NCBI GenBank assembly: GCA_012932295.1
Contig: JAAONU010000049.1
Coordinates: 1-64,000, forward strand
Reading direction: 5' to 3'
Length of the DNA stretch: 64,000 nucleotides
DNA from: Cyclina sinensis
Taxonomy: Eukaryota; Mollusca; Bivalvia; Venerida; Veneridae
In this document: positions 23,310-47,889 of the stretch, one piece after another
How the letters are laid out: the number at the start of each line of letters is the position of its first letter
Position numbering within the stretch: the first letter of the stretch is position 1
Notes under the pieces: generated by a model
Seen by the model: the letters and a program-made list of their open reading frames with translations, nothing else
Told to the model about the DNA's origin: nothing
The model's database searches: none
Position numbers and translations under genes: made by a program

Positions 23310-23340
23310 TTGACAAAAACATATAAATATATGATTATAT
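23310..23340 (+). promoter_or_regulatory. Promoter of the sulfate importer operon
   Basis: TTGACA at 23310-23315 is followed after 18-20 bases by AT-rich -10 candidates within 23333-23340 (ATTATA or TATATA). The sbp-like gene starts about 40 bases downstream behind AGGAGG. Confidence 0.6.
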
Positions 23341-23381
23341 AAGTATATATTAAAATAATTGATGTGAATTCAGGAGGTAGA

Positions 23382-24470
23382 ATGAAAAGAATACTAATTA
23401 TTATAATTATTGTGGGCGTCGCGCTCTTTCTAATTATTGGATACTTTGCAAGGTCTTCTAAAAAAGACAATGCAGATGCTTCGGGTGCTTCTGTAGAAGA
23501 AGTTGAACTCTTACATGTTTCTTTTGACATTGCAAGAGAAATTGGAAAACGCTTAAATGCGGGATTCATTCCCTGGTATAAAGAAAAAACAGGCATACAG
23601 GTAAAAATTGAACAATCGAATGCGGGATCCAGCAAGCAGGCAAGAGCGGTCGCAGACGGGTTGCAAGCTGATATTGTGAGCATGAATCAATATTTAGATA
23701 TAGATTTGATATACGAACTCACAAAAAACAATCCGGATGGGGCAGTGATCCCTCAGAATTGGCAGTCAGCATATCCCAATAACAGTAGCCCTGCAAGTTC
23801 AACCATGGCTTTTGTAGTGAGAAAAGGGAATCCCAAAAATATCAGAGACTGGGATGATGTAATCAGAGAGGGCATAGAGATTATCGCGCCTAACTATCGT
23901 TCAACAGGCAATGGAAGATACAGTCTTTTAACCGCATATACATACGGGAAAAATAAATATGCAGAAAAAAATGAACAATCTGCTGTCGATTTTGTACAAA
24001 AATTAATTCAAAATACTCCAATACTTGCCACAGGAGGAAGGGATGCCACGAATATCTTTGTAGAAAGGGGTATCGGGGATGTGCTGTTAACGTTTGAAGC
24101 AGAAGTCAATCTGATTGTAAAGGATTTGGGGCCGGAATCTTTTGAAATTGTGGTGCCAAGTTATGGGGTTGATGCAAAAATTTACGTAGTGGTCATAGAT
24201 GCGTATGCCAAAGATAAAGGTGAAGAAAATTATAAGGCGGCGAAAAGTTTCTGGGATTTCATCTATACAGATCAAGGGCAGGAAATTGTTGCTCAGAGTT
24301 TCTTTCGACCTATTAATGACGATATCGCTAAAAAATATCAAACGGCACTTCCTGATATTGAACTTTTCAATGTGGAAGATGAATATGGGTCATGGGATAC
24401 TGTAAAACAACTGCTCTTTGATGAAAACGGAGTGGTGGCAAAAGCATACGAACTATCAGGAAAAAATTAA
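23382..24470 (+). CDS. Sulfate/thiosulfate ABC transporter substrate-binding protein, membrane-anchored
   Basis: Binds an oxyanion, probably sulfate, for the CysTWA-type importer. The 362-residue product has a single N-terminal transmembrane segment (about residues 4-21) with no lipobox Cys, then the Sbp/CysP fold: LLHVSFDIAREI, QSNAGSSKQARAVADGLQADIV, and TGGRDATNIFVERGIGDVLLTFEAE. These motifs contact sulfate in Sbp. The ATG at 23382 follows AGGAGG. It is the first gene of a four-gene ABC operon upstream of cysteate synthase, so the supplied sulfur may end up in sulfonates. Related oxyanions cannot be excluded. Confidence 0.9.
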   Translation: MKRILIIIIIVGVALFLIIGYFARSSKKDNADASGASVEEVELLHVSFDIAREIGKRLNAGFIPWYKEKTGIQVKIEQSNAGSSKQARAVADGLQADIVSMNQYLDIDLIYELTKNNPDGAVIPQNWQSAYPNNSSPASSTMAFVVRKGNPKNIRDWDDVIREGIEIIAPNYRSTGNGRYSLLTAYTYGKNKYAEKNEQSAVDFVQKLIQNTPILATGGRDATNIFVERGIGDVLLTFEAEVNLIVKDLGPESFEIVVPSYGVDAKIYVVVIDAYAKDKGEENYKAAKSFWDFIYTDQGQEIVAQSFFRPINDDIAKKYQTALPDIELFNVEDEYGSWDTVKQLLFDENGVVAKAYELSGKN

Positions 24471-24476
24471 ACTACG

Positions 24477-25364
24477 ATGGCGATAGCGCAGAATACTCAT
24501 AAACGCTTACAAAAACTACGGCATTATCTACTCGGCACTACAAGACGCACCCATCATGTACTGCCGGGCTTCTCATTAAGTCTGGGCATTACCCTTTCAT
24601 GGATTGGGTTTTTTATTATGTTCCCCATTATCTTTTTATTTATAAAAGCAAGTGAGATATCGATAACGGAGTTATGGTTTGCCCTGACAAGGCCTGCTGC
24701 CATTACATCGTTTCGAATTACCATTGCCTATGCATTTGCCTGTGGAATAATCAATGTGTTTGTAGGGCTTATCATTGCGTGGACACTCATACGCTTTCCT
24801 TTTAAGACCAGCACCCTATTTGATGCTATTATTGACCTGCCCTTTGCAATTCCCGGAGCGGTGGGAGGCATTGCCCTTGCAAATATACTGGGGAAAAATG
24901 GCATCATTGGCACATTCTTTGACAATTTTGGCATTCAGCTTATTTATAATCAGTTTGGAATACTATTCGGACTTTTATTTGTCACCCTCCCCTTCGCGGT
25001 ACGATCCATACAACCGCTCATACAGGAACTTGAAGTGCAAGAGGAACAGGCAGCAGTAATGTTGGGAGCAAATACATGGAACATTTTTACAAAAGTGCAA
25101 CTCCCATACCTGATACCTGGCATGTTCAGTGCATTTATACTGTCATTTTCCCGCTCAATAGGTGAATATGGGGTAGTAATCTTTCTGGCGGGGAATATTC
25201 CGCTCAAAAGCGAGGTGATCTCCAGATATATCTACAACAAAGTAGACCAATATGATCTCCCCGGAGCGGTGGCAGTGGCATCGGTACTGCTCTTGATATC
25301 CCTATTCATGCTGTGTGTGTTTAATTTTGTTCAATATAGATGGAGAAAGAAATTTGAACATTAG
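24477..25364 (+). CDS. cysT: Sulfate ABC transporter permease CysT-like
   Basis: Inner-membrane permease of the sulfate importer. It has several hydrophobic segments and the EAA-type loop LQVEEEQAAVMLGANTWNIFTKVQLPYLIPG reads in register here as EVQEEQAAVMLGANTWNIF. FSRSIGEYGVVIFLAGNIP near residue 220 is a family hallmark. It starts 7 bases after the binding-protein gene and overlaps cysW by 11 bases. Confidence 0.92.
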   Translation: MAIAQNTHKRLQKLRHYLLGTTRRTHHVLPGFSLSLGITLSWIGFFIMFPIIFLFIKASEISITELWFALTRPAAITSFRITIAYAFACGIINVFVGLIIAWTLIRFPFKTSTLFDAIIDLPFAIPGAVGGIALANILGKNGIIGTFFDNFGIQLIYNQFGILFGLLFVTLPFAVRSIQPLIQELEVQEEQAAVMLGANTWNIFTKVQLPYLIPGMFSAFILSFSRSIGEYGVVIFLAGNIPLKSEVISRYIYNKVDQYDLPGAVAVASVLLLISLFMLCVFNFVQYRWRKKFEH

Positions 25365-26175
25365 TATTGTAAGAACTACATGCAGAATATTTACCATTCT
25401 CTTTCTTGGGTTAATCTTGATATTACCAATCATAGTCATATTCAAAGAAGCATTTTCTGCAGGCGCAGGAGCATACCTCAACAATATATTCCATGAATAC
25501 ACTATATATGCATTCCTGCTCAGTGTTGCCATTACCTCTGTGGCGGTTATTGCGTCCACAATCTTTGGTGTTGCGGCAGCATGGTGCATAAGTTTCTATC
25601 AATTCAGAGGGAAAACGTTCCTCAACAGCATTATTGATCTGCCTATATCTATATCTCCCATTATTATCGGGCTTTCTTTTATCCTCATATACGGCAAGCA
25701 CGGATTTCTGGGTAGAATCCTGGAATCTGCAGGGATACAGATAATATTTTCATGGCCAGGCCTCATGCTCACCAATATGTGTATCATCACCCCTTTTGTC
25801 TTAAGAAGCATACTCCCATCCATGCAGGGCATAAGCACCGAACAAGAACAGATTGCAAAATTACTTGGGGCAAATGGATGGCAAATTCTTATACGCATTA
25901 CACTTCCGCGCATAAAATGGTCTTTGCTCTATGGGGTAATACTGGCAACTGCCCGAAGTATTGGAGAGTTTGGCGCTGCGTCTATTGTGTCGGGCTTAAT
26001 ACGCAAAAAGACTGTCACACTCCCATTGCTGGTAGAGATATATTACAATGAATACTTAAGTCTGGCTGCCTATGCAAGTGCAAGTGTATTTATATTTCTG
26101 GGAATAGGAACATTGATTGCAAAATATATATCCAATAAAAAAGATATTCAGTTAAAATACAATGAGAATACATAA
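25354..26175 (+). CDS. cysW: Sulfate ABC transporter permease CysW-like
   Basis: Second permease, forming a heterodimer with CysT. The EAA loop (EQEQIAKLLGANGWQIL) and TARSIGEFGAASIVSG are conserved. I choose the TTG at 25354, which has GGAG upstream and overlaps the cysT stop; the ATG at 25315 would extend far into cysT. The stop TAA directly abuts the cysA ATG. Confidence 0.9.
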   Translation: MNISIVRTTCRIFTILFLGLILILPIIVIFKEAFSAGAGAYLNNIFHEYTIYAFLLSVAITSVAVIASTIFGVAAAWCISFYQFRGKTFLNSIIDLPISISPIIIGLSFILIYGKHGFLGRILESAGIQIIFSWPGLMLTNMCIITPFVLRSILPSMQGISTEQEQIAKLLGANGWQILIRITLPRIKWSLLYGVILATARSIGEFGAASIVSGLIRKKTVTLPLLVEIYYNEYLSLAAYASASVFIFLGIGTLIAKYISNKKDIQLKYNENT

Positions 26176-27351
26176 ATGAAGATAGAAATACAAAACATTT
26201 CAAAAGAATTCGGCACCCATGTGGCACTGGATAACCTTAATTTTACCATAGAAGAAGGAAATCTCACATCGTTACTTGGGCCTTCAGGGTGTGGGAAAAC
26301 TACGCTGCTCAGAATTATTTCAGGGCTTGAATATGCAAATGCAGGGAGAATATTGATAGATGAGCAGGAGCTCAACCCGGAACTACAACAAAAAATAGGG
26401 TTTGTATTTCAGCACTATGCATTATTCAAACACATGACTGCCTTTGAAAATGTCGCGTTCGGGCTGAGAGTGAAACCGAAAAAAGAAAGGCCATCTAAAA
26501 CAGAAATAGAATCACGGGTGCATGAAGTGCTGAGTTTAGTGCAATTAGACAATCAATCACATAAATATCCACATCAACTGTCAGGAGGACAGCAACAGAG
26601 GATTGCACTGGCCCGAGCGCTGGTGATAAAACCAAAAATACTGTTGCTGGATGAACCCTTTGGGGCATTAGACGCCACCGTACGCAGAGACCTGCGGCGC
26701 TGGTTAAAAAGATTGCATAGCGAAATTCATATCACCACAATATTAGTAACACATGATCAGGAAGAGGCGTTAGAAATTTCTGATAAAATTGCGTTGCTGA
26801 ATCAGGGAAAACTGGAACAGTACGGAAATCCCCAGGAAATATATACGTCTCCTGAAACTCCTTTTGTATATGAATTTCTTGGCGAGGTAAATATATTTTC
26901 CGGACGCTTAAAAGACCACCATCTTATCCATTTTTATCAAGATCAGGATCATAAATCTAATACCACCTATCTCAATACTGACGCACTTGTATATGTTCGT
27001 CCGCAGGACATAAAAATACACAAGCAAAAGGAACAGGAGACTGATTTAGAGGCGATTATCATACAAATAAGTTTTATTGGCACGAATATTCGATTAGAAG
27101 CCCGACTAAAGGGAAATGCCGAATACGAGAATTATGTTATTGAGGCGAGCGTGCATGAAAAAGAATGGGATGCCCATCAGTACAGGGTGGGAGATACTAT
27201 CTATCTAAGAACTACTCAATTTAAGATTTTCGATGAACATGAAGTAAAAAAAAGCATCAAAAATACGCGCGCACTTTCACGCACCCACACTCCAGACTCA
27301 AAAAATCCGCGCAAAAAGCCCTCTGAAAAACAGCGTTCCTCAAAAGCATGA
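26176..27351 (+). CDS. cysA: Sulfate ABC transporter ATP-binding protein CysA-like
   Basis: ATPase of the sulfate importer. Walker A GPSGCGKTT is at residues 35-43, the signature LSGGQQQR near 137, Walker B ILLLDEPFGALDA near 155 and the H-loop VTHDQEEA near 190. The C-terminal third is a regulatory domain as in CysA/MalK relatives, with a basic tail. It closes the transporter operon; cysteate synthase follows 56 bases later. Confidence 0.93.
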   Translation: MKIEIQNISKEFGTHVALDNLNFTIEEGNLTSLLGPSGCGKTTLLRIISGLEYANAGRILIDEQELNPELQQKIGFVFQHYALFKHMTAFENVAFGLRVKPKKERPSKTEIESRVHEVLSLVQLDNQSHKYPHQLSGGQQQRIALARALVIKPKILLLDEPFGALDATVRRDLRRWLKRLHSEIHITTILVTHDQEEALEISDKIALLNQGKLEQYGNPQEIYTSPETPFVYEFLGEVNIFSGRLKDHHLIHFYQDQDHKSNTTYLNTDALVYVRPQDIKIHKQKEQETDLEAIIIQISFIGTNIRLEARLKGNAEYENYVIEASVHEKEWDAHQYRVGDTIYLRTTQFKIFDEHEVKKSIKNTRALSRTHTPDSKNPRKKPSEKQRSSKA

Positions 27352-27395
27352 GAATACCAGGCCAGTTACTGCTCACCTAATTTACGTCTTTAGAT

Positions 27396-27401
27396 TATAA
27401 T
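27396..27401 (+). promoter_or_regulatory. -10 element of a predicted leaderless cysteate synthase mRNA
   Basis: TATAAT ends six bases before the ATG at 27408, and there is no Shine-Dalgarno sequence. The transcription start would fall on or next to the ATG. No good -35 box is seen. Read-through from cysA could also feed this gene. Confidence 0.5.
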
Positions 27402-27407
27402 CAAAGT

Positions 27408-28727
27408 ATGGCAGACCATTACAAACTTCGATGTTTAGGAGACAACACGCTCTTCGACGATATTTGGCATGATCAAAAAGACCCACATGCCCCCGATGTC
27501 TCAAAAAAAATGAAGGGCTATTTGCTCGCCAACCCCCATTGCAAGGACAAGGCATTGTTGCGCACAGAATACCTCGAGCCACTCACCATAGATGCATCAT
27601 GCAATAGTATTTTTAAGTATTCATGGTTGCCAACGCACACCACCTTTTCATGTACGTCTGCTCCTGTTACCTTCAGGAGTGAAAAATTTGCACACGCATT
27701 GAATTTAAAAAACTTATACTGTACATTTTCCGGATACGCTCCATCGAAACACGCCTATAACCACACCTGCTCTTTCAAAGAATTTGAAGCAGTGGGGGTA
27801 TTAGCAAGACATGGGTTGAAAAACACAGCCACTATAGTGCTGGCATCGGCAGGAAACACGGCTCGGGCATTTATAGAAATAGGAACGCCACTCCCTGCCA
27901 AAATAATCATCATAGTGCCAGATCTCGCCCTCTCAGAATTGTGGACTACTCACGCACAGTCAGGAGACAACATAGAAGTGTACTCAATAGAAAACGGTGA
28001 TTACAGTGACGCAATACATCTTGCAAACCGCATTGCTCAGTTCGATGAGTGCATACCTGAGGGAGGCGTGCTCAACATAGGAAGAAGAGACGGCATGGGC
28101 ACATGCCTGCTTTCTGCAGTAGAATGCATAGGACGTATTCCAGATCACTTCTTTCAGGCGTCAGGAAGTGCGTCGGGTGCCATCAGTACGTGGGAAACAG
28201 CAATGAGATTAAAAACCATGATGCATACTCCCGGGGCAGACGTGCCAAAACTCCACATTTCTCAGAATATTCCTTTCACGCCCATTATAGATAGCTGGGG
28301 GAAAAGATCTCCCCATCTAGTCCCTATTGATAAAGATGAAGCACGCACACAAATCAGTCGTGTAGATGCAAAAGTACTCTCCAATAGAATGCCGCCCTAC
28401 AGTACGATTGGAGGCATCTATGATGCTATGATGGCCACTCATGGGGAAGGATATAAAGTCACAAACCAGGAAGGCAGACACGCAAGAGATATGTTTCAGG
28501 CCTTGGAAGGCATACAGATTGATCCCCCCACCGCCATCACCTGTGCAAGTCTCATACAGGCAGTGGAACAAAAGAAAGTGCATCCTGACGATACTATCAT
28601 GCTCAACCTCACAGGAGGAGGCCATGATGAGATAGCCAAAGATTATACCATCACTCAAGTAACACCACGCATGTCTTTACCGGCACAGATAGACACGGCA
28701 CAACTTAAAGCCCTCATTGCCACATAA
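27408..28727 (+). CDS. Cysteate synthase (threonine synthase fold, PLP)
   Basis: Likely makes L-cysteate from O-phosphoserine and sulfite. The 439-residue product is of the PLP threonine synthase fold but matches the methanogen cysteate synthase family in its details: FSGYAPSKHAYNHTCSFKEFEA with Lys124 as the Schiff-base residue, SAGNTARAF (147-155) for PLP phosphate, YSDAIHLANRIA, IPEGGVLNIGRRDGMGT, IPDHFFQASGSASGAISTWE, LHISQNIPFTPI and RMPPYSTIGGIYDAM. An N-terminal insert of about 25 residues (around 15-40) replaces the usual cysteine-rich start. It lies between a sulfate importer and an acyltransferase that could use cysteate. Threonine synthase is the name automatic tools would give; no other thr genes are near. 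Confidence 0.85.
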   Translation: MADHYKLRCLGDNTLFDDIWHDQKDPHAPDVSKKMKGYLLANPHCKDKALLRTEYLEPLTIDASCNSIFKYSWLPTHTTFSCTSAPVTFRSEKFAHALNLKNLYCTFSGYAPSKHAYNHTCSFKEFEAVGVLARHGLKNTATIVLASAGNTARAFIEIGTPLPAKIIIIVPDLALSELWTTHAQSGDNIEVYSIENGDYSDAIHLANRIAQFDECIPEGGVLNIGRRDGMGTCLLSAVECIGRIPDHFFQASGSASGAISTWETAMRLKTMMHTPGADVPKLHISQNIPFTPIIDSWGKRSPHLVPIDKDEARTQISRVDAKVLSNRMPPYSTIGGIYDAMMATHGEGYKVTNQEGRHARDMFQALEGIQIDPPTAITCASLIQAVEQKKVHPDDTIMLNLTGGGHDEIAKDYTITQVTPRMSLPAQIDTAQLKALIAT

Positions 28728-28851
28728 GACACATACTATGCCCAGTTACCGACATATTAGAAAACCCAAGATTATAATTTATTCTATAATAGATACAGAT
28801 GTATACGTAAGATATACACCTACATTTTTATTAAAACATTAAGGACATACT
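28728..28851 (+). promoter_or_regulatory. Promoter region of the acyltransferase gene
   Basis: This 124-base gap holds two TATAAT hexamers (28773-28778 and 28785-28790) and, just downstream, an inverted repeat TGTATA-7-TATACA (28800-28818) that could be an operator. An AAGGA site lies 7 bases before the ATG at 28852. The acyltransferase can thus be expressed separately from the upstream genes. Confidence 0.5.
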
Positions 28852-30138
28852 ATGAATAAAACTCAAGATATATTTTCAAAATGCTATACCGACCAGGGAT
28901 ACTTTGGCGCCCTGCGGGTTGCAGGAGATCGTTTTTTCTCAAGACCGACACTCCCCATCCGACCATCTCCCCACATGAAATTTGACAATCGTCAATGTAT
29001 CATGTGGTCTATTAATGATTACCTGGGCTTTGCAAACCACCCCGAGGTAATGAAAGTTGCACAAAAAAGTCTGGAAACATACGGCATCAGTTCTCCTATG
29101 GGTTCAAGAATGATGAGCGGCACCACGAAAGACCATCTTGCATTGGAAGAAAAAATTGCCCAATGGGTGGAAAAAGAAGCGGCGTATGTGTTTAACTATG
29201 GGTATCTGGGAGTGCTGGGAGTGGTGAGCTCTCTGGTGACTCCTAAAGACATCATCATTATGGATAAACTCTCGCATGCGTGCATAGTAGACGCCGCATT
29301 TCTCTCGCGTGCAAAGACAAGAATTTTTAAGCACAACAACATGGAAGATTTAGAGAAAGTGCTTGCGAGTACCAGAAAAAACAATCCCGACAGCGGCATA
29401 CTCATCCTGATAGAAGGAGTGTATGGCATGACAGGCGACTTAGCACCAATTAATAAAATCATTGCACTAAAAAAGAAATATCATGCACGTGTGTTTATAG
29501 ATGACGCCCATGGCTGCGGCGTGTTGGGAGAAAAAGGGCGCGGGACGGGCGCATATTGTCAGGCGATGAAGGATATAGATATTTACTTTGGCACCTTTGC
29601 AAAAGCGTTTGGTGCAATAGGCGGATTTGCTGCTGCGGATAAGGCAGTCATAGAGTGGATAGGATACAACGCAAGAACGCAGGTCTTTGCAAAGAGTCTG
29701 CCCATCATCTATGTACATGCCATAAGCAAGATGCTCGATCTCATTATCAAAGCCGACGATAGGAGGGCCATCATGTGGGAGCGATCTCACGCACTCAAAG
29801 ATGGATTGAAAGCCGCCGGATTTACTGTCGGGAAAGGCATCTCTCCCATAGTAAGCACCTACATGTCAATCAAAGAAGATACCCCACACACATCGGTAAT
29901 ACCTCAGACAGTGAGTCTCTTACGACATAAGGGCGTGTTTGTGACTGCAGTGATGCATCCCGTCATTCCACAGGGATTGGTCATGTATAGAATGATACCC
30001 ACTGCAAATCACAGTATCTCAGATATTCAACACACAATACACGCATTTCAGGAAATGAAAAAGGAACTGGACTTCGATACTTCAATGACCTCCGATGAAA
30101 ACGAGCTACTAGAGAAGATCTATGTCAATAATGAGTAG
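28852..30138 (+). CDS. Alpha-oxoamine synthase, probable cysteate acyltransferase (SPT-like)
   Basis: PLP enzyme that joins an acyl thioester to an amino acid with loss of CO2. The 428 residues match the bacteroidete serine palmitoyltransferase/cysteate acyltransferase branch: SINDYLGFANHPEV, SSPMGSRMMSGTTKDH, His142 in DKLSHAC stacking on PLP, IDDAHGCGVLGEKGRGTG (215-232) and the Schiff-base Lys251 in FGTFAKAFGAIGG. The neighbour makes cysteate, so the best guess is 3-ketocapnine synthesis, first committed step of sulfonolipids. Serine palmitoyltransferase, 2-amino-3-ketobutyrate ligase or BioF-like roles are less likely by context or motif. The reductase and N-acyltransferase of a full pathway are not in the window. 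Confidence 0.8.
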   Translation: MNKTQDIFSKCYTDQGYFGALRVAGDRFFSRPTLPIRPSPHMKFDNRQCIMWSINDYLGFANHPEVMKVAQKSLETYGISSPMGSRMMSGTTKDHLALEEKIAQWVEKEAAYVFNYGYLGVLGVVSSLVTPKDIIIMDKLSHACIVDAAFLSRAKTRIFKHNNMEDLEKVLASTRKNNPDSGILILIEGVYGMTGDLAPINKIIALKKKYHARVFIDDAHGCGVLGEKGRGTGAYCQAMKDIDIYFGTFAKAFGAIGGFAAADKAVIEWIGYNARTQVFAKSLPIIYVHAISKMLDLIIKADDRRAIMWERSHALKDGLKAAGFTVGKGISPIVSTYMSIKEDTPHTSVIPQTVSLLRHKGVFVTAVMHPVIPQGLVMYRMIPTANHSISDIQHTIHAFQEMKKELDFDTSMTSDENELLEKIYVNNE

Positions 30139-30158: not shown

Positions 30159-31235
30159 CTATTTTCTTCTTCTATACTTCAGGGCTTTCAGAAATAGCCT
30201 AGGTAACGGAGTGCCGATTTTTCTCTTCTGCATATTAAGCACAATCCCATATTTTCTGAGCAAGGGTAGTTTATATACTTCAACAAATTCTATGAGCGTG
30301 CCGTCCGGATCTTCCAGATATGCAAATCTCCCGAAGGCATCATCCATCTTAAATTCTGTTCCGGAATCTATGGTAAATGGGTATCCTGCATTGTGTGCGT
30401 AGACTTTAAAGGCATCCATGCCTTGCATGTCAAAACACAGATGTATGTATCCTAAATCTCCCCAATATCTATCCTTAAACAAATGTCCTTCCTGGCGTGG
30501 CGCCTCTATGAGTTCAATAAAGGATTCACTCAAGAGATGAGAAAAAGGACCTCGGGTGGGTACGGAACGCCCCAGTTTCACTCGTCTGACTTTTTGTTGT
30601 TCTGAAAAAATATCAAAATCCGTAAACGTATCGCTGACATCATAGAGCACCGTATCATATCCGCATATCGTATTATAAAACTCCATGGATTTCTCCATAT
30701 CAGACACGCCTATCAGGGCACCGCACACACCACCCACATATGATTGCGTAGACCGTATGCCTTTAGGATGTGAAAACCATCCCTCATTGGTCTCTATCAA
30801 ACACACCCAGTTATACTCTATGTCCTGGACAAAACACCGCAGGGTGCCGTCAGGTGCGTAACTCGGTTTTGAAATTTCCAATGTACTGTCCAACAATCTT
30901 TCTCTCAATATATGAAGATTTTTACACCGTATGAAAGGAGCTAAAATTCCCAGATTGCCCAACTGTATCTCCCGCATGGTGCCAACTGGTTCCCTGTCGA
31001 CATACTGCCATATCTCCATGCCACCGCCGCCGTTAAGATTGATAAGAAACGTGGCATGACGAGTCCATGTCTGCCCTCCCATATACTTACACATAATGTC
31101 GGCAGTGCCTGTCTCATCAAACATGGGAATAGTAAACCCGAGATTTTGTGTATAGAACCTGCATACGTTGGGATTGTTTTTCACTCCCAACCCTATCTGT
31201 TGTAATCCGCCAAAGATCCATTCTGCTTTTTTCAT
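30159..31235 (-). CDS. Two-domain VOC-family protein, function unknown
   Basis: The product has two vicinal-oxygen-chelate repeats. Each begins with a QIGLGVKNNPNVCRFYTQNLGF or GALIGVSDMEKSMEFYNTICGY type motif; the second ends FAYLEDPDGTLIEFVEVYKLP, where Glu is a usual metal ligand. VOC proteins include glyoxalases, dioxygenases and epimerases. It converges on the acyltransferase gene with 20 bases between stops, so it may or may not belong to the same pathway. The ATG at 31235 with GAGGG upstream is preferred; an ATG at 31253 is in frame. The basic C-terminus is extra. Confidence 0.75.
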   Translation of the reverse strand: MKKAEWIFGGLQQIGLGVKNNPNVCRFYTQNLGFTIPMFDETGTADIMCKYMGGQTWTRHATFLINLNGGGGMEIWQYVDREPVGTMREIQLGNLGILAPFIRCKNLHILRERLLDSTLEISKPSYAPDGTLRCFVQDIEYNWVCLIETNEGWFSHPKGIRSTQSYVGGVCGALIGVSDMEKSMEFYNTICGYDTVLYDVSDTFTDFDIFSEQQKVRRVKLGRSVPTRGPFSHLLSESFIELIEAPRQEGHLFKDRYWGDLGYIHLCFDMQGMDAFKVYAHNAGYPFTIDSGTEFKMDDAFGRFAYLEDPDGTLIEFVEVYKLPLLRKYGIVLNMQKRKIGTPLPRLFLKALKYRRRK

Positions 31236-31268
31236 ACTACCCTCTTTTTTCATGCTGCTTTCTTTTTA

Positions 31269-39200: not shown

Positions 39201-40244
39201 TTAGGTGATAGTATCAATGTACACCCTGTTGCCACTCTCTATTGACATATTAATGGCTTCAATCACTTCCATTACTTTGAGCCCATCTAATCCTGACACT
39301 ATGGGTTCTGTCTCTCCTCGTATCACTTGAGCAAAATGCTCTAATTGTACCACAAGAGGGTCTTGTATATTTTTCATGAAAATTTCGGAACTGATGGGCT
39401 TGTACCAATGGCGTTCACCTGTATAATACCATATACGATTATTAGGCAACTCTATAGCCCCTTTGGTGCCACCTATCATACAGTATAGTTGATCGGTTTT
39501 GGGATACGTTGAATTATCTCCGGCAGTCAACTCCCAGCTCCACGGGGATGGAATGGTATCTGACAAATTAATAGTACAGAGGGTGGAATTCTTGAACTTT
39601 GCCATTATCACCGCAGTATCTTCCACAGATAAATTTCTAGTGGCATTACAACTACAGGCACTGACATATTCTATATCTCCAATAAAATATAAAAGCAAAT
39701 CAATGTCATGACATAAGTTGATATTAATAGGTCCTGCCCCCTTCTTGCATCTCCATGTTACGTCGAAATAAGAATCGTTTTTATAAAGCCAGAAATGACT
39801 ATGTACGGACACAAGTTTGCCTATACGCCCCTTCTCTATTTGTTTTTTCGTTGCCTGCACCACATCATTGAATCTTCTGAAGTAGCCAGTTAATACAGGC
39901 ACGTTTTTCTCCTGCGCCATTTGAAGGACATCCTTGGCATCCTGTATATTGGTCGCAAAAGGTTTTTCTACAAGCACCGGAACGCCCCGTTCTATACATG
40001 GGATGGCATTCTTAAGATGTAATGCATTTGGCGTTGCCACAATAACACCCTCTGGCTTTACGGCTTCCAGCATCTCGCTGACATCTTCAAAAAAAGGAAT
40101 GTTATAACTTTCTGCTATGCGTCGCCCCGTCTCTGTGATGTCAACAACCGCAACAATGGTAATATTTTTTGTTTTTGTGGAACTGTCTATATGTCGTATT
40201 CCAATTAACCCAACCCCGACTACAGCTATTCTTGTTAATTTCAT
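39201..40244 (-). CDS. Gfo/Idh/MocA family oxidoreductase
   Basis: NAD(P)-dependent dehydrogenase, often of sugars or inositols. The 347 residues have a Rossmann start VVGVGLIGIRHIDS, VIVATPNALHLKNAI and the EKPFATN motif with the Lys conserved in this family, then HDIDLLLYFIG in the substrate domain. It is the last gene of the TRAP cluster, with AAGGA before the ATG. The substrate is not predictable. Confidence 0.88.
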   Translation of the reverse strand: MKLTRIAVVGVGLIGIRHIDSSTKTKNITIVAVVDITETGRRIAESYNIPFFEDVSEMLEAVKPEGVIVATPNALHLKNAIPCIERGVPVLVEKPFATNIQDAKDVLQMAQEKNVPVLTGYFRRFNDVVQATKKQIEKGRIGKLVSVHSHFWLYKNDSYFDVTWRCKKGAGPININLCHDIDLLLYFIGDIEYVSACSCNATRNLSVEDTAVIMAKFKNSTLCTINLSDTIPSPWSWELTAGDNSTYPKTDQLYCMIGGTKGAIELPNNRIWYYTGERHWYKPISSEIFMKNIQDPLVVQLEHFAQVIRGETEPIVSGLDGLKVMEVIEAINMSIESGNRVYIDTIT

Positions 40245-40271
40245 ATGTATCCTTATACTTTACTTCTCCCA

Positions 40272-42041
40272 CTAATCAGTAGAAGAATGCGAAACCTTAG
40301 CACCTGGAGAATATATATCCAATATATTCCAATGACCTGTCGTAGGCGTTGGGGTGTTTACCATGGCCACATCAATCACAGTGGGTTTTTTACTCTTGAT
40401 AGCATCCTGCAGTGCATGTTTAAATTCACTTGCCTTTTCAATTTTAATGCCTTCTATTCCATAGGCCCTGGCTATATCCGCATAATTCGTATTTGATCGT
40501 TCTCTGTTGCGTTCAAATAATGTCCCATAGGTTATGCCATAATGTGCTTTTTGCAACCCTGCAATAGTACCAAACGCATTGTTGTTCATCACAATCCACA
40601 CAATATGTAATCCCAACTCATATGCAGTAGAAAGCACTGCAGGATTTTGACCAAACCCTCCGTCTCCTACCATGGATACGACAATCTTTGATGGGGCTGC
40701 AAGTTTTGCTCCTATCGCAGCAGAGGGGCCAAAGCCCATAGTGGCACATCCACCTGGAGTAAGAATACTATTGGGCGTAAGAATGTCAAATTGTTGCCCC
40801 ACACCATTTTTGTTCCAACCAACGTCAGTGGTGATGATGGCATCATCCGGCAACACTTCTCTGGTATCCGATAAAATGCGTTCCGGCATCATGGGGAAAC
40901 TGTCACTTTCACATTGTGCTTGTCTGCTTTGTGTGAACTCTTTTCTAAACTGTGCAATCTGTTGTGATAATTCCTGATGTTTGAATCCATCTGGATATTT
41001 CTCTTTGAAGATTTTGTTGATTAAGGCAAGAGATTGTTGTAAGTCTCCTACCGCCCCTATATGTGCGGGATAATTTCTACTAATTTCGCCTGGCTCTATA
41101 TCTATATGAATGAGTGTAGTAGAATCTGGTATATTAAAAGTATAGCCACTTTCCCACGAACTACTGTCTGCTTCTTTAAAGCGAGTTCCTAAGGCAAAAA
41201 TATAATCTGCAGCAAGACAGGCATTGTTCACCAGAGACGTGCCCCAGAATCCCGTCATGCCTAACACGAAGGGATGTGCGTCAGATATGCATCCCTTTCC
41301 CATTAAACTATATGCCACTGGAATATTGGTGTGGTCTACCAATTCTTCTAATTCCTTTGAAGCTCTTGCCAATAAGACACCGCCCCCGGCATATATCACA
41401 GGGTTTTTTGCCTGTGCTAACAGAGTAACAATTTGCTCTGCCACATCATGTGAAATACAAGGAGCAGAGAGTTTCTGTGTGCCATTCAGTCTTGCAAATA
41501 ATGTTGGGTCTATCTCTTTAGAAAAAATATCCATAGGAACATTCACCAGCACGGGTCCCTGTTGCCCACTCTCTGCCAGTAAAAACGCTTTCTCTATGAT
41601 CTCTGGAAACAATTCTGCCGTATCTACTCTCCAGGCCCGCTTCACAAATGGTTTGAAAATCTCATACTGTGACCCGTCCGCATGCAGATTTACTTCCTGA
41701 TGCGGATGCTTTCCATAATAGTGAGAAGGAACATCACCTGCAATCACCACCATAGGAATACAATCCAACGCTGCATTTAATACTCCAGTGGCACTGTTCG
41801 TAAGCCCCGGACTCAAATGAGATAACAGCACGGATGCGCTATTCTTTACCCTTGCATATCCATCAGCGGCGTGCGCTGCAATCTGCTCATGTCGTACTGT
41901 CACAAAATCTATACTTGACTCATATAATGCTGATAATACTGCAATATTTGTATGGCCGCATAGCCCAAAGACATGAGATATATTTCTTTTCTCAAGATAT
42001 TGTACCAATAATTGTGCTACTGTATTTTTTCTTTCCTGCAT
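40272..42041 (-). CDS. Thiamine diphosphate-dependent enzyme (acetolactate synthase-like)
   Basis: The 589-residue product has all three ThDP-enzyme domains. VRHEQIAAHAADGYARV carries the catalytic Glu; the ThDP motif is MVGDGGFGQNP with the later NNNAFGTI. Automatic tools would say acetolactate synthase, but regulatory subunit ilvN and other ilv genes are absent. With an acylating aldehyde dehydrogenase and a TRAP importer next to it, a 2-oxoacid decarboxylase or an Xsc-type lyase of a sulfoaldehyde are better guesses. The exact reaction is unknown. Confidence 0.8.
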   Translation of the reverse strand: MQERKNTVAQLLVQYLEKRNISHVFGLCGHTNIAVLSALYESSIDFVTVRHEQIAAHAADGYARVKNSASVLLSHLSPGLTNSATGVLNAALDCIPMVVIAGDVPSHYYGKHPHQEVNLHADGSQYEIFKPFVKRAWRVDTAELFPEIIEKAFLLAESGQQGPVLVNVPMDIFSKEIDPTLFARLNGTQKLSAPCISHDVAEQIVTLLAQAKNPVIYAGGGVLLARASKELEELVDHTNIPVAYSLMGKGCISDAHPFVLGMTGFWGTSLVNNACLAADYIFALGTRFKEADSSSWESGYTFNIPDSTTLIHIDIEPGEISRNYPAHIGAVGDLQQSLALINKIFKEKYPDGFKHQELSQQIAQFRKEFTQSRQAQCESDSFPMMPERILSDTREVLPDDAIITTDVGWNKNGVGQQFDILTPNSILTPGGCATMGFGPSAAIGAKLAAPSKIVVSMVGDGGFGQNPAVLSTAYELGLHIVWIVMNNNAFGTIAGLQKAHYGITYGTLFERNRERSNTNYADIARAYGIEGIKIEKASEFKHALQDAIKSKKPTVIDVAMVNTPTPTTGHWNILDIYSPGAKVSHSSTD

Positions 42042-42067
42042 ATATGCTCCTTATTGCTTCACTACCA

Positions 42068-43504
42068 TTAAAAAATCTGTACGGGAGTATTATAGAATTC
42101 ACCAAACAACTCCTTCTCATCAGGTTTGTCTTCCGATATAGGAGTACTCACCCATGTGTACTGCAAATAATGTTTCAAATTTATATTTTCATTTGTTATG
42201 TTTCCACCCCATATCCCGCATCCTAACGATGCAGTCATGGGCATGCCATTAGTCCAGGCCCCTGCATTGGCTTTAGATTGAGGTTGCCTTACCATAATTC
42301 GACTTACAGGCGCAGTTTTTGCGAGCGCGTCTATATTATTCTCATCATGAGAATAGATCCCGCAAGAATGTCCTTTTCCTGCCGTGTTATATATCTGCGT
42401 GACAATGCTCAGGGCTTCAGAAAAATGTTCAAAATAATAGAGGGCCATTACTGTTGTCAATTTTTCCTTAGAAAATTTATGCTGTTCACCAATCTTGCCC
42501 TGGTTTTCAACCATCAGAAATTTTGTATCGTCAGGTATTGAAAATCCTGCATGCGCTGCAATCTGCTGAGGCGGGCACGCTATAGTTTCAAAGGTTCTGT
42601 TGCCTTCTTCATTCCACATTACTTTTTCTATTAATTGCTTTTCCTCTTCTGAGCACAAATACCCACCTTCATCCTTCAGCGCTTGCAGCATATCCTGATA
42701 TATTGACGTATCTATAATGATATTCCCATCCGCCGAACATCCTGATCCAAAATCAGACGTTTTGCTTATTCTTGTATTCTGTGCTGCAATCTTGATATCA
42801 GCACTCCTGTCAATAACCATAGTCGAATTGCCAGCCCCCACTCCATATGCGGGTTTCCCGGAACTATACGCTGACCTTACCATGGGCTTTCCACCTGTAG
42901 CCAGTGTGACATCACATTCTGCCATGAGCTCCTTTGTTGTTGGTATGGACGGCTCCTCTATCACTTGAAATAAATCCTCGGGAGCTCCTGCAGCTACACA
43001 CGCACATCTTATTGCCCTCACCATCTCTGCAGTGGTCTTTTTTGTTCTCGGATGCGGGGAAAAGATCACTGCGTCTTTTGCTTTTGCCGCATAGACTGCG
43101 GTTACCGGAGGAGTAAGCGCGGGGTTGGTCATCGGTATCAGTGAAGCAATAACGCCTACAGGTTTTGCATACTTCGCAATTCCCTTCCGGACATCTTCCT
43201 CTACCTTCCCCACACTTTTTTGTCTCATGGCATCCCGTAATACGCCTTGTATCTTAAACCTCTTGTTTGGGCGACCATTTCTGTCTCCTATGCCACTCTC
43301 ATCAACCCCTAACCGTGCCAAATGAGTAAAGGTATCTTCATGTGAGGTATACCATGCTATTGCCTGACACAACCTGTCAACTTGAGCTTGATCCCAGTCA
43401 GCAATTTTTTCCATTGCATTTCTTGCATTCTCAATTTTTTTCTTAACCATTTCTTTCTGTTCTGTCGTTAACTCATATTTTTTTTCTCTATGTTGCTTGT
43501 CCAT
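42068..43504 (-). CDS. Acylating aldehyde dehydrogenase, SauS-like
   Basis: Turns an aldehyde plus CoA and NAD(P) into an acyl-CoA. The 478 residues are in the CoA-acylating branch: AKPVGVIASLIPMTNPALTPP, ATGGKPMVRSAYSSGKPAYGVGAGNSTMVIDRSADI, the catalytic Cys in DFGSGCSADGNIII, and AGAWTNGMPMTASLGCGIWGGNITNENINLKHYL at the end. These segments resemble acylating sulfoacetaldehyde dehydrogenase (SauS), although acetaldehyde, glycolaldehyde or other short aldehydes are possible. GAGGAG precedes the ATG. Confidence 0.85.
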   Translation of the reverse strand: MDKQHREKKYELTTEQKEMVKKKIENARNAMEKIADWDQAQVDRLCQAIAWYTSHEDTFTHLARLGVDESGIGDRNGRPNKRFKIQGVLRDAMRQKSVGKVEEDVRKGIAKYAKPVGVIASLIPMTNPALTPPVTAVYAAKAKDAVIFSPHPRTKKTTAEMVRAIRCACVAAGAPEDLFQVIEEPSIPTTKELMAECDVTLATGGKPMVRSAYSSGKPAYGVGAGNSTMVIDRSADIKIAAQNTRISKTSDFGSGCSADGNIIIDTSIYQDMLQALKDEGGYLCSEEEKQLIEKVMWNEEGNRTFETIACPPQQIAAHAGFSIPDDTKFLMVENQGKIGEQHKFSKEKLTTVMALYYFEHFSEALSIVTQIYNTAGKGHSCGIYSHDENNIDALAKTAPVSRIMVRQPQSKANAGAWTNGMPMTASLGCGIWGGNITNENINLKHYLQYTWVSTPISEDKPDEKELFGEFYNTPVQIF

Positions 43505-43522
43505 ATCATGCTCCTCAACATG

Positions 43523-44386
43523 TCATATTAGTCTATCTGGCACGCTTTTATATTTTAATTTCACGCGCCAACATTCTTCCAATATCAGATAATTCCTGGT
43601 GTCCTGTAGAATATACTTTGCATATTCTATGGATCCTAAATGCCTATGTAACCTTTCATTGGGAATTTCCAGAGAAAATACATCACAGTTGATATTATCT
43701 AAATAATTCAGTATCGCAATATCACCTCTGCCAGCAGGATACCGTGCTTCTCTGGCAATAAATTTCTGCCCCGAAACGCCCTTAATCCCTTTCCCTTTTG
43801 CATCACATAAGTGCACATAGTCCAGATACTTTGGATCAATGATGTTAATTTCTTCTGGCTCGGTTTTTGATCGATACAGATGCAGCAAATCCAGTAAAAT
43901 ACCAGAATTATCGGCATTTGCCTGTAAGATAAAATCATTAAGAGTATGAATATTGGAAATCGATGACCACGGCAACATTTCCAGTACAATTTTTATCTTA
44001 TACTGTGCTGCCAACTCACAGAGCGCTCGAAATTTTTCTCTGCAAAGAGATAGATCAGTGCCATGTACCTGGGCAATAGCAAATCGAGCCCCAATAAGGG
44101 CGCCTGTCTCCAAAATGGGTTCAAACTCGGCGGCAACGTCTGTAGTGTCGCTAATGATTAATAACTCTAAATCTAATACTTTTACTCTGGAGTCTGCTAA
44201 AATTTTTTTACATTCTGCAATGATGTGTGCATCTCCCACTAATCTATGTACTTCTTCTTCTTTTGTAACCGCTTTCAGTCGAGGACTCACATACTCATAT
44301 CCTGCTATTTCAGCAATCTTTATTAAATTGAAAATAGTCTCTTCTATCATGCTTAAATGGGCTAATGAATATTTATTATTTATCAT
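43523..44386 (-). CDS. Sugar phosphate isomerase/epimerase-like TIM barrel
   Basis: The 287-residue product is an AP-endonuclease-2/xylose-isomerase type barrel: AHLSMIEETIFNLIKIAEIAGYEYVSPR, IKIVLEMLPWSSISNIHTLNDFI with a metal-binding Glu, GILLDLLHLYRS, DYVHLCDAKG and VFSLEIPNERL. These carry the usual metal ligands (E, D, H, E). It overlaps the upstream citrate synthase-like gene by 11 bases, so the two are co-translated. A sugar acid or other hydroxy-oxo compound could be the substrate. Confidence 0.82.
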   Translation of the reverse strand: MINNKYSLAHLSMIEETIFNLIKIAEIAGYEYVSPRLKAVTKEEEVHRLVGDAHIIAECKKILADSRVKVLDLELLIISDTTDVAAEFEPILETGALIGARFAIAQVHGTDLSLCREKFRALCELAAQYKIKIVLEMLPWSSISNIHTLNDFILQANADNSGILLDLLHLYRSKTEPEEINIIDPKYLDYVHLCDAKGKGIKGVSGQKFIAREARYPAGRGDIAILNYLDNINCDVFSLEIPNERLHRHLGSIEYAKYILQDTRNYLILEECWRVKLKYKSVPDRLI

Positions 44387-45218
44387 CTTGCACTTCCTCT
44401 TGAATACCTCCAGAGATATACGGAGGTAAAATTTCCGGTGGTATTGGTCCTTTATTTTTTATTCCACTTTGCATTTCTTCCCACGCATGAGCCAGTATTC
44501 CTACACTACGAGATATACAAAAGAGACCACGACAAAGAGGGGCGGGAATGCCCAACTCACAAAAAATAACGGCAAGAGCACCATCCACATTCATAGGAAT
44601 AGTACGTGAACTGTGAGTGTTAATATAATTCTGTACCTCCCTTGCAATCTCACCAAATATTCCTTTTATATGCCCCTCTTCCGCATATCTCTTGATTACT
44701 TCAAGTGTTTTGACAGATCTTGGATCTGTGGGGGTATGAAATCTATGCCCAAAGCCAGGAATAATCTTTCCATGTTGTTTCTGATACAGAGCGATAGTAT
44801 GCGCCACACTCTGACTCAGTGCCATACCTCCTTGTATATTTTCTTCTATAGCATACAACAACTCTGCACAACCTTGCCCTGCACCTCCATGATTATCTCC
44901 CAGAACATTCACAGCACTCGCCAACACATTATTCATTCCAATGCCACATGTTGCTGCCATACGCGCAATCGCTATAGAGGGTGCGTGTGGTCCATGATCT
45001 ACAGACATTACCATCGCCATCTCAAACAATCGGGCTTCCTCAACAGAAATATTTCTTCCCAAAATCATAAAGAAGATCATCTGAGAGAAAGATTTCGTTT
45101 CCATTAACTCTTCTATCGCCTGGCCTCGGAAACATATTTTCCCGGGACGCATATCTATAATAGAGTTCTGCCACCAGAGACCGGCTCTCTTATTATGTTG
45201 TTCTTCGTCACGTTCCAT
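44376..45218 (-). CDS. Citrate synthase-like/citryl-CoA lyase family protein
   Basis: A short (280-residue) citrate synthase homologue, the size seen for citryl-CoA lyase-like proteins, not the 370-430 residues of true citrate synthase. FRGQAIEELMETKSFSQMIFFMILGR, SVDHGPHAPS, GDNHGGAGQGC and IIPGFGHRFHTPTDPRS carry the catalytic His residues; DGALAVIFCELGIP follows. It probably makes or breaks a C-C bond at an acyl-CoA; the neighbour supplies an acyl-CoA. The ATG at 45218 lies 14 bases after TATAAT with no clear ribosome-binding site. Confidence 0.82.
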   Translation of the reverse strand: MERDEEQHNKRAGLWWQNSIIDMRPGKICFRGQAIEELMETKSFSQMIFFMILGRNISVEEARLFEMAMVMSVDHGPHAPSIAIARMAATCGIGMNNVLASAVNVLGDNHGGAGQGCAELLYAIEENIQGGMALSQSVAHTIALYQKQHGKIIPGFGHRFHTPTDPRSVKTLEVIKRYAEEGHIKGIFGEIAREVQNYINTHSSRTIPMNVDGALAVIFCELGIPAPLCRGLFCISRSVGILAHAWEEMQSGIKNKGPIPPEILPPYISGGIQEEVQDDK

Positions 45219-45232
45219 GTTCTTATATTTCA

Positions 45233-45246
45233 ATTATATGTTACAC
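45233..45246 (+). promoter_or_regulatory. Candidate GntR operator (copy 1)
   Basis: ATTATATGTTACAC, with the small dyad TGT-T-ACA. The same 14 bases occur in the dctP promoter at 49008-49021 on the other strand. Binding here would cover the -10 box. The obvious candidate regulator is the GntR/FCD gene next to it. Confidence 0.55.
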
Positions 45247-45261
45247 ATTTTGTCTTGTCAA
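45233..45261 (-). promoter_or_regulatory. Consensus promoter of the catabolic genes
   Basis: On the reverse strand TTGACA (45261-45256), a 17-base spacer and TATAAT (45238-45233), a perfect consensus pair. It would drive the lyase, TIM-barrel, dehydrogenase, ThDP and oxidoreductase genes. The -10 and spacer overlap the motif shared with the dctP promoter. Confidence 0.82.
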
Positions 45262-45341
45262 GCAAATATATGATATTATTAAAAACGTATGATGTTTTGT
45301 AAGGTAGCTGAAATAGCAGCGCGCATTGCTCACACATCATG

Positions 45342-45995
45342 TTAGTTTTTAAATAAATTAACTGCCTCATAAATATGCTTTTTCAGTACTTTTGTTGCGA
45401 AAGAGGCAGTGCGTTCCAAACAGGATTCCAGTAATAGTTTATGTTCCTCTATTGCTTCCATTCTACGAAACCCCAGTACATTTATCTGGTATCGTAGATA
45501 TTTTGTATAAATAATTTTATGCAGTGAAATCAATTCTGTTGAATCACACGCAGATAAAATAGTCTGATGAAATTCAAAATCAGCCATCTGCAACTCATGA
45601 GAATCAAAATGTTGATCTTTCAGTAATTTCTGTTCATAGGTATGTAAGCGATGATGTGCCGCGATGATCAGACTTTCCCAGTGGACATCTCCTGCTTTTA
45701 TGGATAGTTTTAACATATTCGATTCCAATAAAAAGCGCAAGTGCGCCAATTCATTGAAGTGCTTTTTTGTCAAAGGAGCAACATAAAATCCTTTTTGTTC
45801 TTCTGCTATGATGAATCCATCATTAGTAAGTCGATTTAACACTTCTCGAATTGTTGATACACTTACCTTATATAAATTTTTTAAGTCACCAAGTTTTAAT
45901 TTCCGCTCAGGGGGCAATATCCCATGCACAACATCGTATAATATCTTTTGATATATGGAACTACCAATCGTAGTAGTTTTTTCTTTATCCTTCAT
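45342..45995 (-). CDS. GntR family transcription regulator (FCD domain)
   Basis: The 217-residue product has an N-terminal winged helix (YQKILYDVVHGILPPERKLKLGDLKNLYKVSVSTIREVLNRLTNDGFIIAEEQKGFYVA) and an all-helical FCD effector domain from about residue 80 with a likely metal site (DFEFHQTIL, EEHKLLL, KHIYEA). It lies 9 bases after dctM, so it is co-transcribed with the transporter. It probably senses the TRAP substrate or an intermediate. Confidence 0.9.
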   Translation of the reverse strand: MKDKEKTTTIGSSIYQKILYDVVHGILPPERKLKLGDLKNLYKVSVSTIREVLNRLTNDGFIIAEEQKGFYVAPLTKKHFNELAHLRFLLESNMLKLSIKAGDVHWESLIIAAHHRLHTYEQKLLKDQHFDSHELQMADFEFHQTILSACDSTELISLHKIIYTKYLRYQINVLGFRRMEAIEEHKLLLESCLERTASFATKVLKKHIYEAVNLFKN

Positions 45996-46004
45996 GCCGT
46001 GCTG

Positions 46005-47300
46005 CTATCCCTGATACCCAAGTAATTTTGGAATAAATAATACTATATCGGGAAATAATATAATAAGAAGCAAGAACCCTATCAGAGCAAAAAGAAATGG
46101 CAAGAGATTTTTTATTATCTCCCCCAGTGGGATCTTCATGATAGAATTGATCACCAGAATAACTACTCCATACGGCGGGGTAATCAGACCTATCATACAA
46201 TTTATTACTATGACAACTCCAAAATACACTGTATCAATCCCTAATACCTCCACTGTTGGTAAAAACAATGGGATAATAACCAAGATAATCACCGAAGCGT
46301 CCAGTAGACATCCAAGTACAAAGACAATCAAGTTAATGAGAAGCATAAATAATAATGGATGAATATGCAACCCGGTAAATATGTTTGAAAAATAACTGGG
46401 GATATTTTGACTCACTATCACATAATTCATGATGAGTGCACTACCCACAATAAACCCAGCAGATGCTGAGGCCCTTGCCGTCTCTGACATTGCATCAATA
46501 AATTTTTTAACGGTAAGCCCTCTATAAATCAATAGATCTATGACCAATGCGTACAACGCTGCAATTGCGGCGGCCTCTGTCGCGGTCATCACCCCGCCAT
46601 AAATGCCATACAACAGTATTACAGGCATCATTAACGATGGAAATGCCACCACTGTTTTCTTAGGAATTTCTATAAGCGGCACTTTCTCTTCCACTGCAAA
46701 ATTATTCTTCTTTGCCAATAATGCATTAATGGCCATAAGCACTACTCCCATAATAATGCCGGGTAAAATTCCTCCCAGAAACAGATAGCCAATTGAAGCA
46801 TTAGAAACCAACGCATACAATATCATTGGAATAGAGGGCGGAATAATAGGACCGATGGTGGATGAGGCGGCAGTAATAGCTGCTGCATATCCTCTTGTGT
46901 ATTTGTTATCCTTAGTCATCATGGGAACGATAATCTTTCCAACCCCAGCGATATCCGCCACTGCAGAGCCAGACATTCCAGAAAAAATTAAAGAAAGGAC
47001 AACATTTACATGCCCCAACCCACCCTTAAAACGTCCAACTAAGGCAAGACTAAACTCCAGCAACTTATCTGTGATTTTTGAGGCATTCATGATATTCGCA
47101 GACATGATAAACAAAGGCACTGCAAGCAATAAATAATTATTAAAAATAGAGTTAAGCAGTTGCTCTGCCGCAATAGCCAAATCTTGTCCAGAGGCAAATA
47201 AAAACCCCGTAGCGGCAAAAATTATCGAAATAGAAATCGGTAATTCTAATAACACAAATATTACTAATAATAATACAAATACAATTATTTCTATATTCAT
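46005..47300 (-). CDS. dctM: TRAP transporter large permease subunit
   Basis: A 431-residue membrane protein of about 12 segments, the sodium-coupled core of a TRAP importer. FSGMSGSAVADIAGVGKIIVPMM, YAAAITAASSTIGPIIPPSIPMILYA and ITPPYGVVILVINSIMKI are conserved. Its ATG overlaps the dctQ stop by 4 bases. Confidence 0.94.
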   Translation of the reverse strand: MNIEIIVFVLLLVIFVLLELPISISIIFAATGFLFASGQDLAIAAEQLLNSIFNNYLLLAVPLFIMSANIMNASKITDKLLEFSLALVGRFKGGLGHVNVVLSLIFSGMSGSAVADIAGVGKIIVPMMTKDNKYTRGYAAAITAASSTIGPIIPPSIPMILYALVSNASIGYLFLGGILPGIIMGVVLMAINALLAKKNNFAVEEKVPLIEIPKKTVVAFPSLMMPVILLYGIYGGVMTATEAAAIAALYALVIDLLIYRGLTVKKFIDAMSETARASASAGFIVGSALIMNYVIVSQNIPSYFSNIFTGLHIHPLLFMLLINLIVFVLGCLLDASVIILVIIPLFLPTVEVLGIDTVYFGVVIVINCMIGLITPPYGVVILVINSIMKIPLGEIIKNLLPFLFALIGFLLLIILFPDIVLFIPKLLGYQG

Positions 47301-47860
47301 TCTTTTTCCTCTCCATCATCAACCGTAGGAGTATGGGTATCTCTGTCAACGGTATCTTTTGTGTGTACAAGTTGTACCAAACGATGAACATATACTATTA
47401 TCTTATATCCATACCCCACAATAATGGCAATGAGAAAGATTTTATATACCAAAAAAACATGATTCATAGGTATGCCCATGACATCACTGCTTCTCACCTG
47501 AAGAAAATTAATATAATCCCACACTGGCGATATCATAAAAATACCACCAAAAAAAATAATGCTGAAAGAAATTATTTTTAACAATAACGTTAATTTTTTA
47601 CCAAAAGTTCTATGCATATACACAAACGACACATGATCATCGTCGTGTAAAAAAACACCTGCCCCCAACAATATAACCCATACCCACAAAATAAGGGAAA
47701 ATTCCACTATCCATCCAAATGATTTACCTACCGTATAGCGCAGAATTACATTGGCGCAGAAGGTGACAAAAATTGTCACCACCATTGCTGCTGCCAGATA
47801 ATTTACCCACTGTTTTACATGTGTAATTATTTTTCCAACGTGTTTTTTATATTGACGCAT
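47297..47860 (-). CDS. dctQ: TRAP transporter small permease subunit
   Basis: A 187-residue DctQ-type protein with four hydrophobic segments. VTIFVTFCANVILRYTVGKSFGWIVEFSLILWVWVILLGAGVFL has the family pattern RY..G.....wv.E.s...f.W...lG. The highly charged C-terminal tail is cytoplasmic. It lies between dctP and dctM, with a weak ribosome-binding site. Confidence 0.9.
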   Translation of the reverse strand: MRQYKKHVGKIITHVKQWVNYLAAAMVVTIFVTFCANVILRYTVGKSFGWIVEFSLILWVWVILLGAGVFLHDDDHVSFVYMHRTFGKKLTLLLKIISFSIIFFGGIFMISPVWDYINFLQVRSSDVMGIPMNHVFLVYKIFLIAIIVGYGYKIIVYVHRLVQLVHTKDTVDRDTHTPTVDDGEEKE

Positions 47861-47889
47861 AGAACTTCAGCACACAATCAATAACTCAT

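Follow-up and report, generated by a model that had tools for sequence, protein, structure and literature searches.

The window analysed here, a stretch of 64,000 nucleotides at the start of contig C81 (138,056 bases), carries a block of six plus-strand genes running in one direction (23382-30138). These genes encode an importer of the sulfate family, an enzyme of the cysteate synthase family and an acyltransferase of the SulA type, and would most probably start the synthesis of sulfonolipids, which are sulfur-bearing relatives of ceramides. Since the importer and relatives of the enzymes that open sulfonolipid synthesis in Bacteroidota stand side by side, this spirochaete-like bacterium likely makes such lipids. 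An earlier note on this DNA had described genes for an importer of the sulfate family, a protein with cysteate synthase motifs and an alpha-oxoamine synthase (AOS) lying in the same direction, and the open reading frames (ORFs) and profile scores confirm this arrangement; its further step, that the organism makes capnine-type lipids, gains support from family, residue and tree evidence, while production itself stays a prediction. Enzymes of this kind are already known; the spirochaete locus, and a SulA branch with the diagnostic residues described below, seem to be unreported in the open-licence papers searched.

The two sulfonolipid-type enzymes

The last gene of the block (sulA, 28852-30138, plus strand) is predicted to encode a cysteate acyltransferase of the SulA/CFAT type, which would condense cysteate with acyl-acyl carrier protein (acyl-ACP) to give 3-ketocapnine. 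The top two relatives of known structure are the cysteate acyltransferases 28eh (named cysteate-C-fatty acyltransferase; E = 3.2e-105, 41.5% identity over the aligned parts) and 7u7h (8.7e-95, 38.4%), followed by the serine palmitoyltransferase (SPT) 3a2b (4.3e-64, 33.7%). Family calls in this work were made by NCBIfam profile scores against curated cut-offs, and the sulA protein clears none among the 12 families listed: it reaches 305.4 bits with BioF (cut-off 426.45), 295 and 254.4 bits with Kbl (cut-offs 460 and 493), and 288.2 and 287.1 bits with the SPT models NF047599 and NF047600 (cut-offs 500 and 640), so that the SPT, Kbl and BioF cut-offs are all missed by more than 120 bits.

The active-site residues agree with those of Alistipes finegoldii SulA (alfi_1224, 7u7h), for which passages of PMC9304779 give N53, H140, D217, H220, T248, K251 and R376 as the AOS active-site residues and describe Lys281 as conserved in known SulA and as a residue that may distinguish sulfonolipid from sphingolipid enzymes. 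In the alignment, N55, H142, D217, H220, T248, K251, K281 and R380 of the window protein fall on N53, H140, D217, H220, T248, K251, K281 and R376 of SulA; the pyridoxal phosphate (PLP) residues, Lys251 and Lys281 are shared, the last two at identical numbers. Lys281 is present in the window protein and in every one of the 120 listed homologues (the best 120 of about 8000), and in none of 18 other AOS proteins (SPT, E. coli BioF and Kbl, and 15 genome loci), which have Ala, Thr, Asn or Ser at this position (Ala in SPT, Asn in E. coli Kbl). A scan of genome contigs with a single SulA protein, which used six exact peptide patterns and is little informative on distant relatives, found 15 loci of 25-35% identity with Ala, Asn, Thr or Ser at position 281, none accompanied by a cysteate synthase; 44 stretches were matched in a scan of viral contigs with SulA, and none was confirmed.

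In a tree of 65 rows, including 44 of the 120 listed homologues, 45 rows with the window protein among them join 28eh and 7u7h with a support of 100/99 (the program gave a warning on long branches). The window group stands beside the Bacteroidota SulA proteins, with BioF, Kbl and SPT falling elsewhere in the tree; compared with A. finegoldii SulA, the window protein belongs to a separate, likely spirochaetal sister clade, and although 28eh is its best solved relative, a long stem separates the two. The SPT, BioF and Kbl identities were rejected because of the missed cut-offs, Lys281 and the grouping with SulA. The earlier note had named a place among BioF/Kbl enzymes as a refutation of its reading; the tree and Lys281 put the protein with SulA/CFAT instead.

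The gene directly upstream (cysS, 27408-28727, plus strand) encodes a PLP-dependent protein of the cysteate synthase family, predicted to make cysteate from phosphoserine and sulfite. The protein gives a near full-length match to TIGR03844 with 404.9 bits, over the curated cut-off of 324.9, and 49.7 bits with the threonine synthase model TIGR00260 (thrC), whose cut-off is 167.1. PDB entry 9k3c, which bears the name cysteate synthase, is its best solved relative (E = 2.7e-93), and the two have the lysine of the SFKE motif in common; threonine synthases of known structure trail with E = 1.5e-8 and worse. A threonine synthase identity, which the earlier note had named as a refutation of its reading, was rejected on these profile scores. 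The matches of the locus enzymes (E = 3e-121, 2.7e-93 and 3.2e-105) lie far beyond chance. Among the matches listed, the closest database proteins are P0001-P0003 (53-56% identity), followed by P0004 at 42% and others at 40-47%, and the organism-named homologues in the first listing (again the best 120 of about 8000) are Bacteroidota except for one Hormoscilla. In a quick, midpoint-rooted tree with 65 of the 120 listed homologues, the window protein and P0001-P0004 form one clade (SH-like approximate likelihood ratio test (SH-aLRT) 100), a deep clade of its own outside which the named Bacteroidota cysteate synthases fall, and P0010, P0015, P0023 and P0071 form a second, likely spirochaetal group separate from it.

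Importer, proposed pathway and alternative readings

By profile score, the first four genes are an ATP-binding cassette (ABC) importer of the sulfate/thiosulfate family, all on the plus strand. The substrate-binding protein (CysP/Sbp type, 23382-24470) reaches 309.8 bits with TIGR00971 (cut-off 155.5) and 292.5 bits with the thiosulfate model PRK10852, under the cut-off of 308. The first permease (24477-25364) is of the CysT type (TIGR02139, 287.9 bits, cut-off 246.1); the second (25315-26175), of the CysW type by best match, is over the TIGR00969 cut-off (254.3 bits, cut-off 240) and below that of CysW (TIGR02140, 283.6 bits, cut-off 329.1). The ATPase (26176-27351; PF00005, 136.1 bits) is called CysA type by position, its family score not being decisive. 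A gap of 56 bases separates the ATPase gene from cysS, and one of 124 bases separates cysS from sulA.

In the pathway that we propose, sulfate (or thiosulfate or sulfite) would be imported, the cysteate synthase family enzyme would form cysteate from sulfite and phosphoserine, and the SulA-type enzyme would turn cysteate and acyl-ACP into 3-ketocapnine and CO2; 3-ketocapnine would then be reduced to capnine by a short-chain dehydrogenase/reductase (SDR) encoded elsewhere in the genome, and N-acylation of capnine would yield a sulfobacin-like lipid placed in the outer membrane. We infer the substrates and products of the locus enzymes from the Bacteroidota enzymes. The cysteate and ketocapnine steps have strong family evidence behind them, and the import, reduction and N-acylation steps are suggested by analogy.

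For the third step in Bacteroidota, passages of PMC11211663 describe an SDR reductase encoded at a distance from the first two genes; for N-acylation, no gene is named in these passages or in those of PMC9304779. An SDR motif scan of the window ORFs matched only a ribosomal protein. A PF13561 search of the assembly, in which 18 of 247 candidates were scored, gave one match off megabase coordinates (C153:17241-17801); the other 17 scored matches lie at megabase coordinates and were taken as the host's. The C153 protein (278 residues, 42% GC), the sole candidate found, is at most a candidate ketocapnine reductase, on a contig that would be spirochaetal by its composition. The ketoreductase that the earlier note had suggested looking for in the rest of the genome has one SDR candidate, which misses the sphingosine reductase cut-off.

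Several results weigh against a sulfonolipid locus. The importer ATPase clears no sulfate-specific cut-off (TIGR00968, 336.6 bits against 342.75; the CysA model PRK10851, 368.3 against 502), and its best NCBIfam match is PhnT2 (372.4 bits, under the cut-off of 457.7). The C153 reductase is over the cut-off of a general oxidoreductase model (354.4 bits, cut-off 305) and under that of the 3-ketodihydrosphingosine reductase model (223.8 bits, cut-off 400); its best solved relative is 3m1a, a putative dehydrogenase, and the 60 solved relatives shown include no sphingosine reductase. All three matches of the ATP-sulfurylase model PF01747 lie on the host-like contig C1 and resemble exons of a host gene, with none elsewhere, the model also missing 9 of 14 control genomes. 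In the sulA protein itself, Ser80 and Ala255 stand where A. finegoldii SulA has Ala78 and Gly255, which make backbone contacts to Lys281, and automatic annotation labels 20 of the 120 listed homologues "glycine C-acetyltransferase". This label, the common fold family and the 33.7% identity to SPT 3a2b would suit a reading in which 28852-30138 is an SPT or a glycine C-acetyltransferase, active in sphingoid base synthesis or in threonine degradation; we consider it highly improbable, as the label is opposed by the tree position and by Lys281, where SPT and E. coli Kbl have other residues, the profile cut-offs of these families are missed, and a cysteate synthase family gene lies directly upstream. 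Cysteate might also go to a non-lipid product (coenzyme M-type sulfonates, taurine), the acyltransferase being a mere neighbour. Cysteate synthase was originally described from Methanosarcina, where it serves coenzyme M synthesis, and the adjoining sulfate importer would suit any sulfonate product; but the SulA-type gene begins 124 bases downstream of cysS, and in other spirochaete sequences a common contig for the two families seems to be more frequent than chance (see below), which makes this second alternative very unlikely in our view.

The route to sulfite is the weakest link of the proposed pathway. A variant compatible with sulfonolipid synthesis from this locus is that capnine is made with sulfite from imported thiosulfate, from imported sulfite or from the breakdown of an organosulfonate, which we hold to be a real though tentative possibility. 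The confinement of the ATP-sulfurylase matches to a host-like contig speaks for it, as does the binding protein, which falls in the sulfate model and near the thiosulfate model. A catabolic-looking gene cluster on the minus strand of the window (39201-48897), for which an organosulfonate substrate is possible, encodes a Gfo/Idh dehydrogenase, an acetolactate-synthase-type thiamine pyrophosphate (TPP) enzyme, an acylating aldehyde dehydrogenase, a TIM-barrel protein, a protein of the citryl-CoA lyase type (over cut-off), a GntR regulator and a tripartite ATP-independent periplasmic (TRAP) transporter. The transporter and the aldehyde dehydrogenase, which is nearest to the SauS (sulfoacetaldehyde dehydrogenase) model, would fit such a sulfite supply; yet the dehydrogenase remains under the SauS cut-off (442.3 bits, cut-off 600) and has an acetaldehyde dehydrogenase as its best solved relative, and the adjacent TPP enzyme scores like an acetolactate synthase, its 25 best models including none for sulfoacetaldehyde acetyltransferase. 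The cluster was not accepted as a sulfite source for now because its enzymes miss the sulfonate-specific cut-offs.

Spirochaete origin and relation to known systems

The assembly (902,855,857 bases, 154 contigs), classed as an intron-bearing genome, looks eukaryotic, and a bacterial contig within it points to a host-associated bacterium or a contaminant; the bacterium is a symbiont, a gut or surface associate, or a contaminant of the sequenced eukaryote. Among 18 sampled contigs, five (C81, C69, C129, C120 and C150) are as dense in ORFs as bacterial DNA, with 41-45% GC, and long-ORF coverage is 0-13% in 11 of the 13 others (C90 and C65 are intermediate). On ORF density and GC, C69, C129, C120 and C150 look as if they belong to the same bacterium as C81, and C153 probably does so too. 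Ribosomal proteins L2 (386.3 bits, 338.1 for the next) and S3 (224.3 bits, 208.5 for the next) are closest to PDB 8fmw, which we take to be the Borreliella burgdorferi ribosome, and the 8 SulA homologues bearing an organism name, among the 120 listed, are all Spirochaetota; the description of the genome as spirochaete-like was well founded.

The two enzyme families are not peculiar to the window organism and occur in many other Spirochaetota sequences. In a second search, with a profile built from nine sequences (the window protein, P0001-P0004, P0010, P0015, P0023 and P0071), eight of the 120 proteins listed carry an organism name within Spirochaetaceae, Spirochaetales or Spirochaetia, each with the label "cysteate synthase", so that database annotation already puts the enzyme in spirochaetes. 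As a proxy for a shared contig, we used exact equality in the size of the longest contig between all 120 SulA rows and all 210 distinct cysteate synthase rows of the two listings, with lengths shifted by 1-500 in either direction as the control. Eleven of the 120 SulA rows match a cysteate synthase row (control mean 0.84, maximum 6), and for contigs of at least 8 kb the figure is 8 of 70 (control mean 0.09, maximum 2); a missing partner carries no meaning here, because each listing holds the best 120 of about 8000. From the excess over the control, cysS and sulA appear to lie on common contigs in other spirochaete sequences.

In the titles and abstract openings of the open-licence papers that our searches listed, we found no report of sulfonolipids or of such a locus in spirochaetes. 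The earlier claim of novelty for the group stands as far as these publications go, and has to be qualified by the cysteate synthases already annotated in spirochaetes. Homologues of sulfonolipid genes are reported from 13 phyla, spirochaetes being unnamed in the main text as far as seen in PMC11211663; passages of PMC11052126, a study that analysed Treponema denticola, report ceramide sulfonates from P. gingivalis, P. brevis and C. albicans and contain no statement on ceramide sulfonates for T. denticola. In its passages on Chryseobacterium gleum and A. finegoldii, PMC11211663 describes a pathway whose first two enzyme families are those of the window locus and whose SDR reductase genes lie away from cys and cfat; the arrangement would be alike here if the C153 gene is the reductase. 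No importer is mentioned there beside the genes, whereas in the window a sulfate-type importer and cysS precede sulA. A proven product is confined to the pathway of those two species.

Bacterial sulfonolipids have been described mainly from Bacteroidota, according to passages of PMC9304779, and passages of PMC11211663 link them to inflammation and immune responses. If spirochaetes are makers of these lipids as well, lipid markers read as "Bacteroidota" would need care, a new anionic lipid would enter models of the spirochaete envelope, and a candidate signal molecule would be at hand for spirochaetes that live with hosts. There is perhaps an even chance that sulfonolipids are a common outer-membrane class across much of Spirochaetota, made by an own SulA/CysS branch, and that in members living with a host, the window organism included, their synthesis is fed by a dedicated importer of the sulfate type within the locus and gives the host a ceramide-like signal lipid of spirochaetal origin. 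Nothing in the analysis supports the role in motility or host signalling that the earlier note had raised.

Neighbouring features

The six-gene unit is closed by a minus-strand gene for a protein of the vicinal oxygen chelate (VOC) fold, glyoxalase-like (30159-31253), convergent with sulA. At the other end, the ATG at 23382, behind AGGAGG, is a likelier start of the binding protein than the listed GTG at 23364. A promoter-like TTGACA-17-GATTAT match (23310-23338, plus strand, 10/12) ends 43 bases before this first start codon, and its first base is the position at which the earlier note had begun the locus; it is only plausible as a promoter because such matches in the region are no more numerous than in shuffles (22, shuffle mean 25.2). 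A second match, CCGACA-18-TATAAT (28749-28778, plus strand, 10/12), lies in the 124-base gap before sulA and is at chance level in the region.

Elsewhere on C81, a mevalonate cluster (3-hydroxy-3-methylglutaryl-CoA (HMG-CoA) synthase, reductase, kinases, decarboxylase and type 2 isopentenyl diphosphate isomerase; 124075-130960) and a short alanyl-tRNA synthetase were recognised by eye; both the mevalonate pathway and the short synthetase occur in spirochaetes. A tandem array at 104255-111453 consists of nine small lipoprotein-like ORFs that resemble one another and have near-identical leaders, and large surface-protein-like ORFs with a common leader and repeat motifs at 80782-91815 suggest a variable gene family, again as judged by eye. 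The first 10,000 bases of contig C90, with 24% GC and a long-ORF coverage of 0.59, are unlike both the host and the spirochaete, and perhaps derive from another microbe or an organelle.

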